NCBI GenBank assembly: GCA_025055075.1
Contig: JANWYV010000023.1
Location: 1 to 64,000, forward strand
Direction: 5' to 3'
From: Blastocatellia bacterium
GTDB taxonomy: Bacteria; Acidobacteriota; Blastocatellia; HR10
Length of the DNA stretch: 64,000 bases
Shown here: positions 16,005 through 59,705 of the stretch, in pieces
Numbering within the stretch: the stretch's first letter is position 1
Layout of the letters: each line of letters opens with the position of its first letter
The notes under the pieces: generated by a model
The model's database searches: none
What the model was told of the DNA's origin: nothing
What the model saw: only the letters and a program-made list of their open reading frames with translations
Translations under genes and position numbers: made by a program

Positions 16005-16452
<448 letters not shown>

Positions 16453-52298: not shown

Positions 52299-52350
52299 CC
52301 AACCTCGAAGTGATCCTCGATCTTCGGATTCGACGCGACGAGCGAGCGTC

Positions 52351-52380
52351 TTGCCCCGCTGCACCAAGATGCGCCATACT
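52351..52380 (+). promoter_or_regulatory. Predicted sigma-70 promoter of carB
   Basis: TTGCCC (52351-52356) and CATACT (52375-52380) are 18 bp apart. Start near 52387, 16 nt before the ATG at 52403. A moderate match only. Confidence 0.4.
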
Positions 52381-52402
52381 CTCGATTTCATACATCGGAG
52401 CT

Positions 52403-55400
52403 ATGCCGAAGCGGACGGACATCGAGAAGATTTTGATCATCGGATCAGGCCCGATCGTCATCGGGCAGGCGTGCGAATTCGATTACTCGGGGGCGCAGGC
52501 CTGCAAGGCGTTGCGTGGTGAGGGATACACGGTCATCCTCGTGAACTCCAATCCCGCGACGATCATGACCGATCCGGAATTTGCCCATCGCACCTACGTC
52601 GAACCCCTGACGGTCGAGGTCCTCACCAAGATCATCGAACGGGAGCGTCCCGATGCGTTGTTGCCGACCGTTGGAGGGCAGACGGGATTGAATCTTGCGG
52701 TCGCGTTGGCCGAGCAGGGCGTTTTAGAGGCCTACGGCGTGCGGTTGATCGGGGCGAATTTGCAGGCGATTCGTATTGCCGAAGATCGCCGGCTCTTCAA
52801 GCAGGCGATGGAAGAGATCGGGTTGCAAATGCCGCGCGCCGGATTCGCGTATTCCCTGGAAGAAGCGTGGGCGATCGCGGCGGACCTGGAATATCCAATC
52901 GTTATTCGTCCGAGCTTCACGCTCGGGGGGACGGGAGGAGGGATCGCCTACAACGATGAAGAGTTCCGAGAGATCGTCGAGCGGGGCCTGGAGGCCTCGC
53001 CCATTCATGAGGTCCTCGTGGAGGAGTCCATCATCGGATGGAAAGAGTACGAGCTGGAGGTCATGCGCGATCTCGCCGACAACGTCGTCATCATCTGTCC
53101 GATCGAGAACTTCGATCCGATGGGGATTCACACGGGGGACTCCATCACGGTGGCTCCGGCGCAAACGCTCACCGATCGCGAATATCAGCGCATGCGGGAT
53201 GCTGCCATCGCTGTGATCCGCAAGGTCGGAGTGGAGACGGGCGGCTCGAATATTCAGTTCGCTGTCAATCCCCGTACCGGCGAGCTGCGCGTCATCGAGA
53301 TGAATCCGCGCGTCTCGCGCTCCTCGGCGCTTGCTTCGAAAGCGACGGGATTTCCGATCGCGAAGATCGCCGCCAAACTCGCTGTGGGGTATACGCTCGA
53401 TGAGATCCCCAACGACATCACGCGCAAGACGTGGGCGAGCTTCGAGCCGACGATTGATTACGTCGTCGTGAAGATCCCTCGCTGGGCCTTCGAGAAGTTC
53501 CCGACGGCTGATCCGACGCTCACCACGCAGATGAAGTCGGTCGGAGAGGTCATGGCCATTGGACGAACGTTCAAGGAGGCATTGCTGAAAGGGATTCGAT
53601 CGCTGGAGACGGGACGTCTCTTCCGCTTCGATCACGACCTGCCGGAGGAAGAGCTGCGGCGGCGCCTGGCGATCCCCACGCCCGAGCGCCTCAATTATAT
53701 CCGCTACGCCTTGGATCGAGGATGGAGCGTCGAGCAGATTCACGAATTGACGAAGATCGATCCATGGTTTCTGGCGCAGCTGCGCGAGATCGGGGAGGAG
53801 CAGCGGCGCTTGCGGACGATGACGCTGACGACGGCGACGCGCCAAGACTTGCGTCGGGCCAAACGGATGGGATTCTCGGATGCGCGGTTGGCCGATCTGT
53901 GGGGAGTGAGCGACGAAGCCGTGCGGCAGCGACGTCTGGAACTCGGCGTGCGTCCGGTCTTCAAGCGCGTGGACACATGCGCGGCGGAATTCGAGTCCTA
54001 CACGCCGTATCTCTACTCGACCTACGAGGACGAGGACGAAGCTCAGCCGACCGCTCGGCGCAAGATCATGATCCTGGGAAGCGGCCCCAATCGCATCGGG
54101 CAGGGAATCGAATTCGACTACTGCTGCTGTCACGCCGCCTTCGCCCTTCGCGAGCAGGGGTACGAGACGATCATGGTCAACTGCAATCCCGAGACGGTCT
54201 CGACCGATTACGACACGTCCGATCGGTTGTATTTCGAGCCGCTCACATTCGAGGACGTGATGAACATCTACGAGCTGGAGCGGCCCGATGGGGTCATCGT
54301 CCAGTTCGGCGGGCAAACGCCGCTCAATCTCGCGATGAAGCTGTGGCGAGCGGGCGTCCGCATCATCGGCACGTCGCCCGAATCCATTGATCTGGCCGAG
54401 GATCGGGAGCGATTCGGCGCGCTTCTCCGCGAGCTGGGCATCCCACAACCCGAGAATGGGACGGCCACGAGCATCGAAGAAGCCAAACGCGTGGCTGCGC
54501 GCATCGGGTATCCCGTCTTGGTCCGACCGAGCTATGTCCTCGGCGGTCGCGCCATGGTGATCGTCTACGACGAGCGCGCTCTGGAGCGATACATGCGGGA
54601 AGCCGTCGAAGCCTCGCCCGCGCATCCCGTCCTGATCGATCGCTTCCTGGAAGACGCGTTCGAGGTGGATGTGGATGCGCTCGCCGATGGATCCCGATGT
54701 GTGATCGCGGGCATTCAGGAGCACATCGAGGAAGCGGGGATTCATTCGGGCGACAGCTCGTGCGTGCTCCCGCCGTACATGATCCCCGCCGAGCAACTGG
54801 ATGTGATTCGCCGCTACACGCGGCGATTGGCTGAAGCCTTGGGCGTCGTCGGCTTGATGAACGTCCAATATGCGATCAAAGACGGGATCGTGTACGTGCT
54901 CGAAGTGAACCCGCGCGCGTCACGCACTGTGCCGTTTGTGAGCAAGGCGACGGGCGTTCCGCTGGCGAAGATCGCGGCCTTGCTCATGGTCGGACATATG
55001 CTGGATGAGTTCGATCTGCCCGACGAGCTGAAGGTGGATCGGTTTTACGTGAAGACGCCAGTCTTCCCGTTCGCGCGCTTTCCGGGCGTGGATCCCGTAC
55101 TGGGGCCGGAGATGCGCTCGACTGGAGAAGTCATGGGCGCAGCCTCGACCTTCGGCAGCGCTTTCCTCAAGGCGCAGTATGGGGCCGGAACCCATCTGCC
55201 GCGCCAAGGCACGGCCTTCATCAGCGTCAATGACAACGATAAGGCGAACGTGATTCCCATCGCGCGGCGCCTTTGCGACTTGGGATTTGAGCTGATTGCC
55301 ACGCGCGGCACGCGCGAGGCGTTGCAGCGCGCTGGCCTGCCGGCGCGATTCGTCTACAAGGTCAACGAAGGACGTCCGAACGTCGTTGACCTCATCAAGA

Positions 55401-55636
55401 GCCGTCACATCCATCTCATCATCAACACACCGCTTGGGCGAGCGTCGTTCTACGATGAGCGTTCGATCCGCCGCGCTGCCGTCCAGTATCGCGTCCCGTG
55501 CATCACGACGCTCACGGGAGCTCGCGCGGCCGTCGAGGCCATCGAGGCCTTGCAGAAGGAGCAGCTGGAGATCGGATGCCTGCAGGAATATCACGAGTAT
55601 CTTCGCCGGCTCAATCATCGCGCCGCATCGCCGTAG
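52403..55636 (+). CDS. carB: Carbamoyl-phosphate synthase large chain
   Basis: 1077 residues, full length, from the ATG at 52403 ([20 protein letters not shown]); the frame starts upstream at 52310 without homology. Two homologous ATP-grasp halves: the first has [13 protein letters not shown] and [17 protein letters not shown]. The second has [15 protein letters not shown] and [15 protein letters not shown]. Between them is the oligomerisation segment, and at the end an MGS-like allosteric domain ([14 protein letters not shown]). It makes carbamoyl phosphate for pyrimidines and arginine with CarA, which is not adjacent here. A minus-strand frame of ~700 codons within it is a shadow. Confidence 0.97.
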
Positions 55637-55711
55637 GTTTTGATCTGAAGGGGCGCGCCTCTCCGTCGGGAGGGCGACTCCGACAAGGACTTGCGGCAAG
55701 GAGGGGTGACG

Positions 55712-55936
55712 ATGGAGGAAAAGAAGAACATCGTGCTCATCTTCGGGAAAGACACCTGACCGTACACGATGGCCGCCCGTGAGGATTACGGCCAGCGAGG
55801 ATATGAGGTCCGATATTTCAACGTGCAAAAGGACGAATCGGCGTTTCAGCAAATGCTCCAGTACTCCGGGGGAAAGCGCAGTGTGCCAGTGATCGTAGAA
55901 GGGGAGCGCGTGACGATCGGGTTCGGCGGCACTTGA
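55712..55936 (+). CDS. Glutaredoxin-like selenoprotein with in-frame UGA (U-P-Y-T)
   Basis: 74 residues if the TGA at 55757-55759 is read as selenocysteine (residue 16). AAGGAGGGGTGACG precedes the ATG. The product begins MEEKKNIVLIFGKDT-U-PYT. The first strand and GKDT lead straight into the position where glutaredoxins have CPYC or CPYT, so the TGA replaces the redox cysteine. The downstream frame stays open for 58 codons and codes thioredoxin-fold features: GYEVRYFNVQKDES, then the cis-proline segment KRSVPVIVEGERV and GFGG. I recognise it as like the small glutaredoxin-like selenoproteins labelled Uxx-star family in databases. It was missed because a stop splits it. Function: thiol/selenol redox reactions. 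It lies 75 bp after carB. If no Sec machinery exists it would be a pseudogene. Confidence 0.82.
55767..55797 (+). promoter_or_regulatory. Candidate bacterial SECIS hairpin
   Basis: CGATGGCCG (55767-55775) pairs with CGGCCAGCG (55789-55797) with one A/G mismatch. A 13-nt loop contains GUGAGG and could close further by CC/GG pairing. The stem starts 7 nt after the TGA codon, and the apical GU is ~20 nt from it, as expected for SelB-binding elements. The structure was judged by eye. Confidence 0.55.
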
Positions 55937-56103
55937 GGAGTGTGAGTGCCGACCGGTCCGGTCGGAATTAAGAGAAGCCGATTCGATCCCGGCGGGAAAT
56001 CACCGCGCGCGAGCGGCGAGGTGGCGGCTTGGAAGAATGCGCTCCGGTTCGCCAGGAGCAGAAAGCTCGGGATATTTGTCCTCTGGCTGCGCTGGTCAGC
56101 TCT

Positions 56104-56919
56104 TCACAGCTTTTTCAACAATTCCTTCCATCGCGCCCACGCTTGCTCGCGCGCCTTTCGATTGGCATCGGTGGGATTCGGTTCCTCTCCCGTACGCATG
56201 AAGCCGTGTCCGGCGCCATCGTACGTGATGGGCTCGAAGGTCTTGCCCAAACGTTTCATCACGTCGGCAGTCTCCGGTACGGTCGCCGTCACGCGGGCAT
56301 CATTGCCGCCGTAGAACCCGTAGACGGGACAGCGGATGCGCGCCAGACTCTCCGAATCCCGTGGTCCCGTACCGTAGAAGACGAAGGCTGCGGCCAGATT
56401 CTGGCGATGGGTGGCGAACCGGAAGGCTTGACTTCCCCCCCAGCAAAATCCAGCGACGGCGACTTTCCCATTGCTGGCAGGCAATCGCGCAGCGTAGTCA
56501 GCGATGGCATCCAGATCGGCCATGACCTGCTCCGGCGGCAATTTCGAAATCGCCTCGCGCGCCGCGTCTTCCGATGGAAAGTCGCTCGTCCGTCCTCCGT
56601 TGGGCGCCATCCCAGAGAGCAGGTCGGGAGCGATGGCAATAACACCAGCTTCAGCCAACTGATCGGCCACGCTCCGCACCCAATCGGTGAGCCCACGATT
56701 TTCATGGATCACGATGACCGCCGGCGTCTTGGTTTTGGCTTCGGGATAGACCACGAAGGCATGGACCGTTCGCTGGCCATATGTGATGGTGACCCACTCT
56801 TGGTGGCGCGGTGACGTCTCCAATCGTCGCCGCGCCCACTCTTGAGCTGAGGGACGCGTACTCCCGAAACTCAAGGTCGCGAAGAACACGAGCAAGGCGA
56901 TCCATCGTTCCTTCATCAT
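56104..56919 (-). CDS. Secreted dienelactone hydrolase-family protein
   Basis: 271 residues; start at 56919 directly after GGAGGAGGA (the frame extends to 56940). Signal peptide WIALLVFFATLSFGSTRPSA. Alpha/beta-hydrolase core with VIHENRGLTDWVRSVADQLA, the cysteine nucleophile elbow VAVAGFCWGGSQAFRFA (G-x-C-x-G-G), Asp in GFYGGNDARVT and His in YDGAGHGFMRTGEE. The DLH family hydrolyses dienelactones and related esters; the substrate of this exported form is unknown. The molybdenum hydroxylase large-subunit gene ends 27 bp upstream on the same strand, so it may be in the same transcript. Confidence 0.9.
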   Translation of the reverse strand: MMKERWIALLVFFATLSFGSTRPSAQEWARRRLETSPRHQEWVTITYGQRTVHAFVVYPEAKTKTPAVIVIHENRGLTDWVRSVADQLAEAGVIAIAPDLLSGMAPNGGRTSDFPSEDAAREAISKLPPEQVMADLDAIADYAARLPASNGKVAVAGFCWGGSQAFRFATHRQNLAAAFVFYGTGPRDSESLARIRCPVYGFYGGNDARVTATVPETADVMKRLGKTFEPITYDGAGHGFMRTGEEPNPTDANRKAREQAWARWKELLKKL

Positions 56920-56946
56920 TCCTCCTCCTGAGATGAGCATATCGGC

Positions 56947-59226
56947 TCAGCCTTCTTGTCGCCGTCGGGCTTCGATGGGGAGTCCGCGGGGCACCAGCGG
57001 CAGCGATCGAAGACGCACGCCCGTGGCTTGAAAGATCGCGTTCCCGATCGCCGGCGCGATGCCCACAATCGGCGTCTCTCCCGCTCCCGCCGACGGCAAG
57101 TCTCGGCGATCCAGAAGCACGACTTCGATCTGCGGAAGGTCACTGAAGCGAGGGACACGATACCGCGAGAAGCGCGGATTGAGGATCTTTCCCCCTTCGA
57201 ACTCGATGGCCTCAAACAGGGCGCCGCCCAACCCCATCACGAGCGCGCCCTCAATTTGGTTCTTGAGATGGTCGGGATTGAGAATGGCCCCGCACTCGAA
57301 GGCCGTGACGACGCGCACGACTTTCACCTCGCCGCTTGTGCGGTCCACGGCGATCTCCACGCACGTGGCCACGTAGCCGCCTTTCTCAAATCCCGCGGCG
57401 AGACCTACGCCGCGATCAGGGGCTGGTCTCACTTTCCCCCATCTGAAGCGATCCGCTGCGGCTTGGAGCACGGCGCGCAGGCGATCATCCGTGAGGTTCT
57501 TCAATCGAAATGCCAGTGGATCCATCCCCACTAGGTGCGCCAGTTCATCCATGGCCGTCTCGCGGGCGAAATGATTGGCCGTGGCCGCGAGCGCGCGGTA
57601 GGAGCCTTGACGTAAGGGAGAGCGCGTCGGGTGGAATTCGATGCGTTGATGGGGGATCGCATAGGGCGTGCGAATGGCGGCCGCGCCAGAATTGTAGTTG
57701 TGGAATTCCCAGGCCGTGATCGTCCCATCAGCCTTCACTCCGCTTCGGACTTCGATCACACCAGCTGGGCGGAAGTATGCCCACGTGAATTCCTCTTCGC
57801 GCGTCCAGACGACCTTGACGGGACGACCCGCAGCTTTCGCCAAGCGCGCAGCCTCCAGGGCAGCTTCCCCCGTGTGTTTGCCGCCATATCCGGAACCCGT
57901 ATCGGGCACGATCACGCGCACGCGATCTTCGGGAAGACCGAACGCCTGCGCCAGTTCGCTCCGCACGCCAAAGGGGCGTTGTGTCCCCGTCCATACTGTC
58001 AGACGTCCATCCTTCCACTCGGCGACGGCCGCTCGAGGTTCCAGCGGCGCGTGCGCGATATAGGCGACCGTGTACGTTTGCGCAAAATGCTTTTCGGCAA
58101 GACGCCATCCCTCTTCGATCGAGCCAACCACATGTTGCGAGCGACCCTCCCATCCCCGCGCCTCGATCTCGTTCTTCTTCAGATACTCGAAGATCTCGCG
58201 GCTTGAAGGCTGCGGCGTCGTCCTCCACTCCGCGCGAATGGCCGCGAGCGCGCGCGCCGCTTGTTCAGTGTTCGGAGCCGCGACGCCCACGAAATCGCCC
58301 TCGCGGATGACGACGACATCGGGCATGGCCTCCGCCTCGCGCGTGTCCACGGAGACGAGCGTCGCTCCGAACGCTGGTGGCCGCAAGACCTTCCCGTAGA
58401 GCATGCCGGGGAGCTTTAAATCCGAGACATAGCGATGTTCGCCGATGACGAAAGCTCGGCCATTCACCTTGGGGACAGAGGTCCCGATGATTTTCCACTG
58501 TTCGGGCGGCGTGAGCGGTACCACCTCGGGAAGGGGACGCGCGAGTTTCTGGCCGCGTGTGAGCATCCCGATATCTTGCGCTCGACCGCTCGCCGCATGC
58601 CGGACCTGACCATCGGTGATCTCCACTGTCGCGCGTTCGACCTGCCACTGTTCGGCAGCTAGATCGAGGAGCAGCTCGCGCGTCGCTGCCGCCACGCGAC
58701 GCAAATGCGCAGCCATTGTCGGTGTCGTTCGGCTCCCGAACGTCCCCATGTCAAAGGGCGTCAGGTCCGTATCCCCCATAACTAGGCGAATGCGTTCGAT
58801 GGGCACGCGCAATTCTTCAGCGACGACCTGCGCGAGCGAAGTTCGGATGTTCTGCCCGACCTCGACCTTGCCCGTATAGACCGTCACCAAACCATCCTCG
58901 CCGATGTGAAGCCACGCGCTGATCTCCCTAGGCATAGGTGGGGTCGCAGCGCGACGTCCGCCACTGGACTCCTGTAGAGCGGGCACGTCTCGGAACAGAA
59001 GGACGAGCAACCCGGCCCCCAGTGCCTGACAAAACTGGCGGCGCGTGAGGAGTGGAGCGATCGCTTGAAGCGACTCTGCAGTTGGTGCCGCCAACCTTGA
59101 GTCGTTCCCTCCTTGATCGCCTGGATCATGGCCGGCCGAGCTTGTCGGAAGGGATGCCACGAAAAGCTCATATCGTTCGGGCTCAAGGGATGGATTCGAG
59201 AGTTCTCCGAAAAGCTCCTCTCTCAT
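56947..59226 (-). CDS. Molybdopterin-binding large subunit of an exported xanthine dehydrogenase-family hydroxylase
   Basis: 759 residues. The start at 59226 follows AAAGGAGGGTCGGCA and overlaps the small-subunit stop (ATGA). A Tat-type signal (LTRRQFCQALGAGLLVLLF) lies at residues ~60-80, behind an unusually long N-region. Two Ald_Xan_dh domains follow: IGEDGLVTVYTGKVEVGQNI, VGMDPLAFRLKNLTDD, ECGAILNPDHLKNQIEGALV and AGAGETPIVGIAPAIGNA (GAGE/GVGE cofactor motif). The layout is that of the isoquinoline 1-oxidoreductase/aldehyde dehydrogenase IorB type, which lacks a FAD subunit and sits in the periplasm. The substrate is unassigned. Partner: the 2Fe-2S subunit immediately upstream. Confidence 0.9.
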   Translation of the reverse strand: MREELFGELSNPSLEPERYELFVASLPTSSAGHDPGDQGGNDSRLAAPTAESLQAIAPLLTRRQFCQALGAGLLVLLFRDVPALQESSGGRRAATPPMPREISAWLHIGEDGLVTVYTGKVEVGQNIRTSLAQVVAEELRVPIERIRLVMGDTDLTPFDMGTFGSRTTPTMAAHLRRVAAATRELLLDLAAEQWQVERATVEITDGQVRHAASGRAQDIGMLTRGQKLARPLPEVVPLTPPEQWKIIGTSVPKVNGRAFVIGEHRYVSDLKLPGMLYGKVLRPPAFGATLVSVDTREAEAMPDVVVIREGDFVGVAAPNTEQAARALAAIRAEWRTTPQPSSREIFEYLKKNEIEARGWEGRSQHVVGSIEEGWRLAEKHFAQTYTVAYIAHAPLEPRAAVAEWKDGRLTVWTGTQRPFGVRSELAQAFGLPEDRVRVIVPDTGSGYGGKHTGEAALEAARLAKAAGRPVKVVWTREEEFTWAYFRPAGVIEVRSGVKADGTITAWEFHNYNSGAAAIRTPYAIPHQRIEFHPTRSPLRQGSYRALAATANHFARETAMDELAHLVGMDPLAFRLKNLTDDRLRAVLQAAADRFRWGKVRPAPDRGVGLAAGFEKGGYVATCVEIAVDRTSGEVKVVRVVTAFECGAILNPDHLKNQIEGALVMGLGGALFEAIEFEGGKILNPRFSRYRVPRFSDLPQIEVVLLDRRDLPSAGAGETPIVGIAPAIGNAIFQATGVRLRSLPLVPRGLPIEARRRQEG

Positions 59227-59705
59227 TGCCGACCCTCCTTTCGCATCTTTTGAGCAGCTCTTTGGATGGCGTGGATGATGCGCCCATAGGTCCCGCATCG
59301 GCAGATGTTGCCATTCATGAAGTGAATGATCTCGGCCTCGCTCGGATTGGGGTTCGCGGTCAATAGCGCCACGCCGGACATGATCATGCCCGGTGTGCAA
59401 TAGCCACATTGCAATGCGCCGACTTCGAGGAACGCTTCTTGAAGCGGATGCAGGCGTCCTCCTTGCGCCAGGCCTTCAATCGTCGTGATCGGACGACGGG
59501 CGACCAGATGCACCGGCGTGATGCAAGAACGCACCGCTCGCCCCTCGACGAGGACCGTGCACGCGCCACATTGTCCTTCGCCGCAGCCATATTTCGTGCC
59601 CGTGAGATCCAGGTCTTCGCGCAGCACGCTGAGCAGGCTGCGATTCGGCTCTACGTCCAGGCGATGGCGAACGCCATTGATGTGAAGCTCGATGACCTCG
59701 CGCAT
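59223..59705 (-). CDS. 2Fe-2S small subunit of the molybdenum hydroxylase
   Basis: 160 residues. Two clusters: plant ferredoxin type CGEGQCGACTVLVEG ending in RSCITP, and the C-terminal helical cluster GALQCGYCTPGMIMS with NGNICRCGTYGRI. Passes electrons from the Mo centre to an acceptor (probably a cytochrome in IorA-type systems). It has no signal peptide, so it would ride out with the Tat-borne large subunit. A 4-bp overlap ties the two genes. No cytochrome or FAD subunit gene is adjacent. Confidence 0.95.
   Translation of the reverse strand: MREVIELHINGVRHRLDVEPNRSLLSVLREDLDLTGTKYGCGEGQCGACTVLVEGRAVRSCITPVHLVARRPITTIEGLAQGGRLHPLQEAFLEVGALQCGYCTPGMIMSGVALLTANPNPSEAEIIHFMNGNICRCGTYGRIIHAIQRAAQKMRKEGRQ

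Follow-up and report, generated by a model that had tools for sequence, protein, structure and literature searches.

The analysed window comprises 64,000 nucleotides of a Blastocatellia bacterium genome (assembly GCA_025055075.1, contig JANWYV010000023.1). On its plus strand a glutaredoxin-like reading frame of 77 residues was found at 55712-55945, with two in-frame TGA codons at residues 16 and 75. A Shine-Dalgarno sequence AAGGAGG (55698-55704, plus strand), read directly, is located 7 nt upstream of the ATG at 55712. From the ATG, 15 codons lead to a TGA at 55757, followed by 58 open codons, a second TGA at 55934, the codons GGA and GTG and a third TGA at 55943. The initial annotation had described ribosome site, ATG, 15 codons, in-frame TGA and 58 open codons, and this description is exact up to 55936. 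Its frame could thus be retained as far as 55936, but not the stop at 55934 with a product of 74 residues, since this TGA is assigned here as a second selenocysteine (Sec) codon in a protein of 77 residues. With the TGA at 55934 read as Sec, the C-terminus is ...GFGGT-U-G-V-stop. The first Sec codon (UGA-1, 55757-55759, plus strand) was assigned by family comparison; it encodes residue 16 in the motif U-P-Y-T at the N-terminus of helix 1. The second (UGA-2, 55934-55936, plus strand) encodes residue 75, the third from the C-terminus. The TGA at 55943-55945 (plus strand) is taken as the true stop, with the family stopping at the same place and TGA being the usual stop codon.

Upstream, the large subunit of carbamoyl-phosphate synthase is encoded by carB on the plus strand (52310-55636); the gene was named from reading its translation, and its start codon is not settled. 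Within the taxonomic family, each of the six members has carB next to the selenoprotein gene; outside it this arrangement was not seen. No neighbour conserved beyond the taxonomic family was found, and the other neighbours vary by lineage. The neighbourhood gives no lead to the function. By reading, two minus-strand frames at 56947-59705 were recognized as a molybdenum hydroxylase pair with large and 2Fe-2S subunits, and a dienelactone-hydrolase-like frame lies beside them at 56104-56940. Elsewhere in the window, a class A RNase P RNA was detected at 16010-16451 with 274 bits; the open frames over it are probably spurious. The long frames of the window were listed together with their TGA-bounded extensions, and this listing established no second selenoprotein.

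The 77-residue product matched the NCBIfam profile NF041114 'UXX-star selenoprotein family 1' with 118.8 bits (E 8.9e-35) over profile positions 1-70 of 70. The cut-off of this profile is 72 bits, and both TGAs were scored as Cys; the alignment reached the last profile position. The hallmarks of NF041114, UxxT and a C-terminal U-x-x-stop with two Sec codons, are both present (TGA 55757 and 55934). For UXX-star families 2 (NF041211) and 3 (NF047338) the scores of 54.3 and 51.5 bits stayed below the cut-offs of 100 and 97 bits, respectively. The Pfam glutaredoxin profile PF00462 was exceeded with 39.2 bits against a cut-off of 22.9. In a six-frame search of the genome with NF041114 this was the sole locus over the cut-off (104.4 bits, '2 TGA' inside), and a search of this genome for additional UXX-star genes gave nothing over the cut-off. 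Family 2-like genes were observed in other genomes of the class (L072-L092, matches near 1501). A 2026 review includes NF041114 among the predicted families, with the motif UxxT and two Sec (PMC13188914); a 2022 review describes it as 'distant Grx-like protein 1' with UxxT (PMC9312934). The family is already published and catalogued, and the window gene is an additional member of it. No tested function for UXX-star family 1 was found in the literature.

For the comparison of the two TGA sites, 36 distinct members were read, 35 by script, including the window gene, and L059. At residue 16, TGA is present in 32 of the 36 and Cys in four, namely L037, L040 and L041 with TGC or TGT, and L059. At residue 75, TGA occurs without exception (36 of 36); the usual continuation is G-V-stop, and the pattern U-x-V/I is found throughout. 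Site 75 is more conserved than site 16. After Sec 75, the 35 members end with TGA (31), TAG (3) or TAA (1). Among the named relatives, metagenome bins of Acidobacteriota and Blastocatellia come closest. Two deltaproteobacterial relatives (L032:2998-3213 and L033:2998-3213) keep both TGAs, with ends KGEGUAV or QGKGUTV and not GGTUGV. The initial annotation had interpreted the locus as a glutaredoxin-like selenoprotein gene with Sec at the redox cysteine, and had expected Cys or Sec in place of random stops at residue 16 of relatives. The matches to NF041114 and to the Pfam glutaredoxin profile agree with the first claim; in the relatives only Sec or Cys was seen at residue 16, and random stops were absent. 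This core interpretation is supported; the second Sec had been overlooked.

Structure prediction with Cys for Sec resulted in a mean pLDDT of 94.2 and the order beta-alpha-beta-alpha-beta-beta; the last helix of glutaredoxins (Grx) is absent. The product is thus predicted as a shortened glutaredoxin fold with strand 4 as its last element. U16 immediately precedes helix 1 in the model, and U75 is placed near the end of the tail. The nearest solved folds are thioredoxin-like BC3987, Clostridium oremlandii Grx1 and NrdH with Z values of 9.2-9.8; Foldseek was also run.

In the predicted protein U16 would take the classical Grx nucleophile position, and U75-Gly-Val would lie on the C-terminal tail. 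U16 may attack a disulfide or an oxidised substrate, and U75 may resolve the product or relay. Such a relay from one selenol to the other, proposed by analogy with animal thioredoxin reductase and its C-terminal Sec tail, is the preferred reading of the function, with roughly even chances; binding of metals or metalloids comes second. According to this second proposal the gene also has two Sec, but the selenols would bind Hg, As or Cu and carry out no thiol-disulfide chemistry. The 2026 review mentions that Sec in the UXX-star family may be metal-binding ligands or may meet unknown substrates (PMC13188914). The invariance of the C-terminal Sec, whereas U16 is replaced by Cys in four of the 36 members, is consistent with metal binding as well. 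However, no recurring metal-resistance genes were seen within 1.5-3 kb when the clusters were inspected by eye, and UPYT at the predicted helix start would correspond to the catalytic geometry of Grx. Hence, metal binding without redox chemistry appears rather unlikely, though it is the most serious competitor of the selenol relay.

Candidate SECIS hairpins were examined behind both Sec codons. The bacterial SECIS model used here expects a hairpin 16-37 nt behind the Sec-UGA, a G among the first two loop nucleotides and an energy of -7.5 kcal/mol or below (PMC13188914). SECIS 1 lies in the coding region (55767-55797, plus strand), with the loop GUGA at 55779-55782, G23-U24 counted from UGA-1, and a fold of -13 kcal/mol. 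Loop, spacing and energy are within the limits of the model; the upper stem is irregular in the window, and some family members likewise have a short or irregular one. Over the whole family the hairpin score was above all 200 shuffles (z 5.0), while folding of the window sequence alone was no better than in shuffles (z -0.62). Codon usage was considered in addition. The Sec forms keep GCC-CGT-GAG behind UGA-1: the sixth codon is GCC in 32 of 32 and the seventh is CGT in 31 of 32. In the remainder of these genes, CGT is used at 11 of 134 Arg positions. None of the three Cys-16 forms counted has CGT. This synonymous constraint accompanies Sec and is lost in the Cys forms, and therefore points to an RNA element behind UGA-1.

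SECIS 2 is located wholly in the 3' UTR (55949-55965, plus strand). It consists of a 7-bp stem, CCGACCG/CGGTCGG, and the loop GUC, with G23-U24 counted from UGA-2. The fold of -11.9 kcal/mol fits the limits of the bacterial model clearly. Hairpins complying with the model were found behind UGA-2 in 34 of 35 members, and the mean score of 6.46 compares with 3.99 in shuffles (family z 12.9). Against 210 other gene ends the difference was likewise clear (p 1e-13). The stem sequences vary between lineages and the pairing is preserved. MAFFT aligned SECIS 2 poorly because the loop position shifts by a few bases; hairpins were therefore scored in each sequence separately.

It has to be discussed if the protein contains a single Sec at residue 16 and terminates at 55934. 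UGA is the ordinary stop in this genome, and truncation by release factor would be expected to compete, as mixtures are obtained with an engineered C-terminal Sec (PMC3834832). The comparison of relatives argues against this possibility: TGA with U-x-V/I at site 75 is kept without exception, the NF041114 profile runs through this codon, SECIS 2 is conserved behind it, and all four Cys-16 forms retain UGA-2. A protein with one Sec is thus regarded as very improbable. Equally small is the chance that the hairpin in the 3' UTR acts as a transcription terminator and not as a SECIS, as could be supposed for a GC-rich hairpin shortly after a stop codon; a U-run does not follow it (TTTT in two of 34 members), and such a hairpin is absent from other gene ends.

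The sel genes of the genome (3.02 Mb, 98.8% complete) were identified by profile searches, with 587.6 bits for selA, 372.2 for selB and 370.3 for selD. The tRNA-Sec (selC) has a UCA anticodon and a length of 98 nt and is the best match of RF01852. The presence of selA, selB, selC and selD bears out the prediction, made from the locus alone, that the organism makes Sec. selD (L020:1501-2427) itself contains one in-frame TGA, in GGA-GCC-GGT-TGA-GCG-TGT-AAG near L020:1521-1541. SelD normally carries its catalytic Cys or Sec at this position. Therefore, the selenophosphate synthetase of this genome is likely a selenoprotein, judged from its codons.

Within the phylum, 43 of 396 genomes contain the NF041114 family over the cut-off. 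selA over the cut-off was present in 39 of these 43 and in 211 of the 353 other genomes (Fisher p 3.6e-5, phylogeny uncorrected). The four genomes with the family but no selA over the cut-off are G341, G226, G276 and G104; three of them are 77-92% complete, and G341 is listed as 97%. Weak Grx-like matches of 23-25 bits with one internal TGA were noticed in three genomes from one family, f15, of the phylum (G265, G073, G257). They perhaps represent another Grx-like selenoprotein.

For the window gene, dN/dS was about 0.05-0.13 in comparison with five relatives from its own taxonomic family. The four closest showed dN of 0.03-0.04 and dS of 0.47-0.75, and L047 showed dN of 0.15 and dS of 1.15. 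Therefore, purifying selection acts on the reading frame through the TGA. A pseudogene or a sequencing error with nonsense codons might be suspected for a short frame with two in-frame stops in a draft genome, but this is extremely improbable in view of the low dN/dS, the recurrence of both TGAs in dozens of genomes from many families of the phylum, and the absence of TAA or TAG at sites 16 and 75 in the relatives read. A genome-wide reassignment of TGA, e.g. to Trp, for which the in-frame TGA is the only support, is negligible, as TGA terminates 42 of 49 long frames in the window and the tRNA with UCA anticodon is the 98-nt tRNA-Sec. The pseudogene, reassignment and terminator explanations were tested and rejected on the grounds of conservation, dN/dS, stop usage and tails.

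The locus most probably is a functional gene of a UXX-star family 1 selenoprotein in which both UGAs are decoded as Sec; from the sequence evidence, namely the family identity, the conservation of both UGAs, the Sec machinery and the two RNA elements, we estimate a probability of about 0.93. SelB and Sec-tRNA(Sec) would decode both codons, each under its own hairpin. UGA-1 would be directed by the in-frame SECIS 1, and UGA-2 by SECIS 2 immediately 3' of the stop. The third UGA, three codons past Sec-75, would terminate translation. The loop of SECIS 2 is 19 nt away from UGA-2 and 10 nt from this terminating UGA, and the latter distance is below the 16 nt that the model sets as minimum. Spacing may thus separate the reading of UGA-2 as Sec from the reading of the third UGA as stop. 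As a tentative proposal with somewhat less than an even chance, the two selenols could form one working centre, either as a diselenide relay or as a two-selenol metal pincer, and a natural SECIS wholly in the 3' UTR could set a Sec-UGA apart from the stop-UGA that follows six bases later, purely by spacing. Three UGAs, for Sec, Sec and stop, and two SECIS elements are contained within about 210 nt of mRNA. This compact mRNA offers a natural test case for the discrimination between Sec-UGA and stop-UGA in bacteria. Standard gene calling is expected to miss or truncate the selenoprotein gene. Even the earlier version with 74 residues loses the last three residues, including the most conserved Sec of the family.

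Compared with 'distant Grx-like protein 1' (NF041114; PMC9312934, PMC13188914), the window protein shows no essential difference and represents the family in an acidobacterium. The Grx-like domain is shared with UXX-star families 2 and 3. The family 2-like relatives read end with ..GUTVH or ..GUTIH and carry CPYC or CPHC, hence one Sec, whereas the window protein has two. The selenoprotein glutaredoxin cGrx1 of Clostridium oremlandii (7c10/7c12) ranks first among solved relatives in sequence comparison and is one of the best matches by fold. In contrast to cGrx1, the UXX-star protein has Thr at the position of the resolving Cys, lacks the last helix and contains a second, C-terminal Sec. With animal thioredoxin reductase it has in common a Sec near the C-terminus on a tail; the proteins are unrelated, and the likeness is one of design only. 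The SECIS loop of E. coli has GU at nt 23-24 counted from the UGA (PMC8659212), and the same position is occupied by GU in both window loops. Furthermore, engineering for the expression of TrxR1 showed that a SECIS outside the translated region can function behind a C-terminal Sec in E. coli (PMC3834832); in this design the SECIS is placed behind the stop, as in the window gene.
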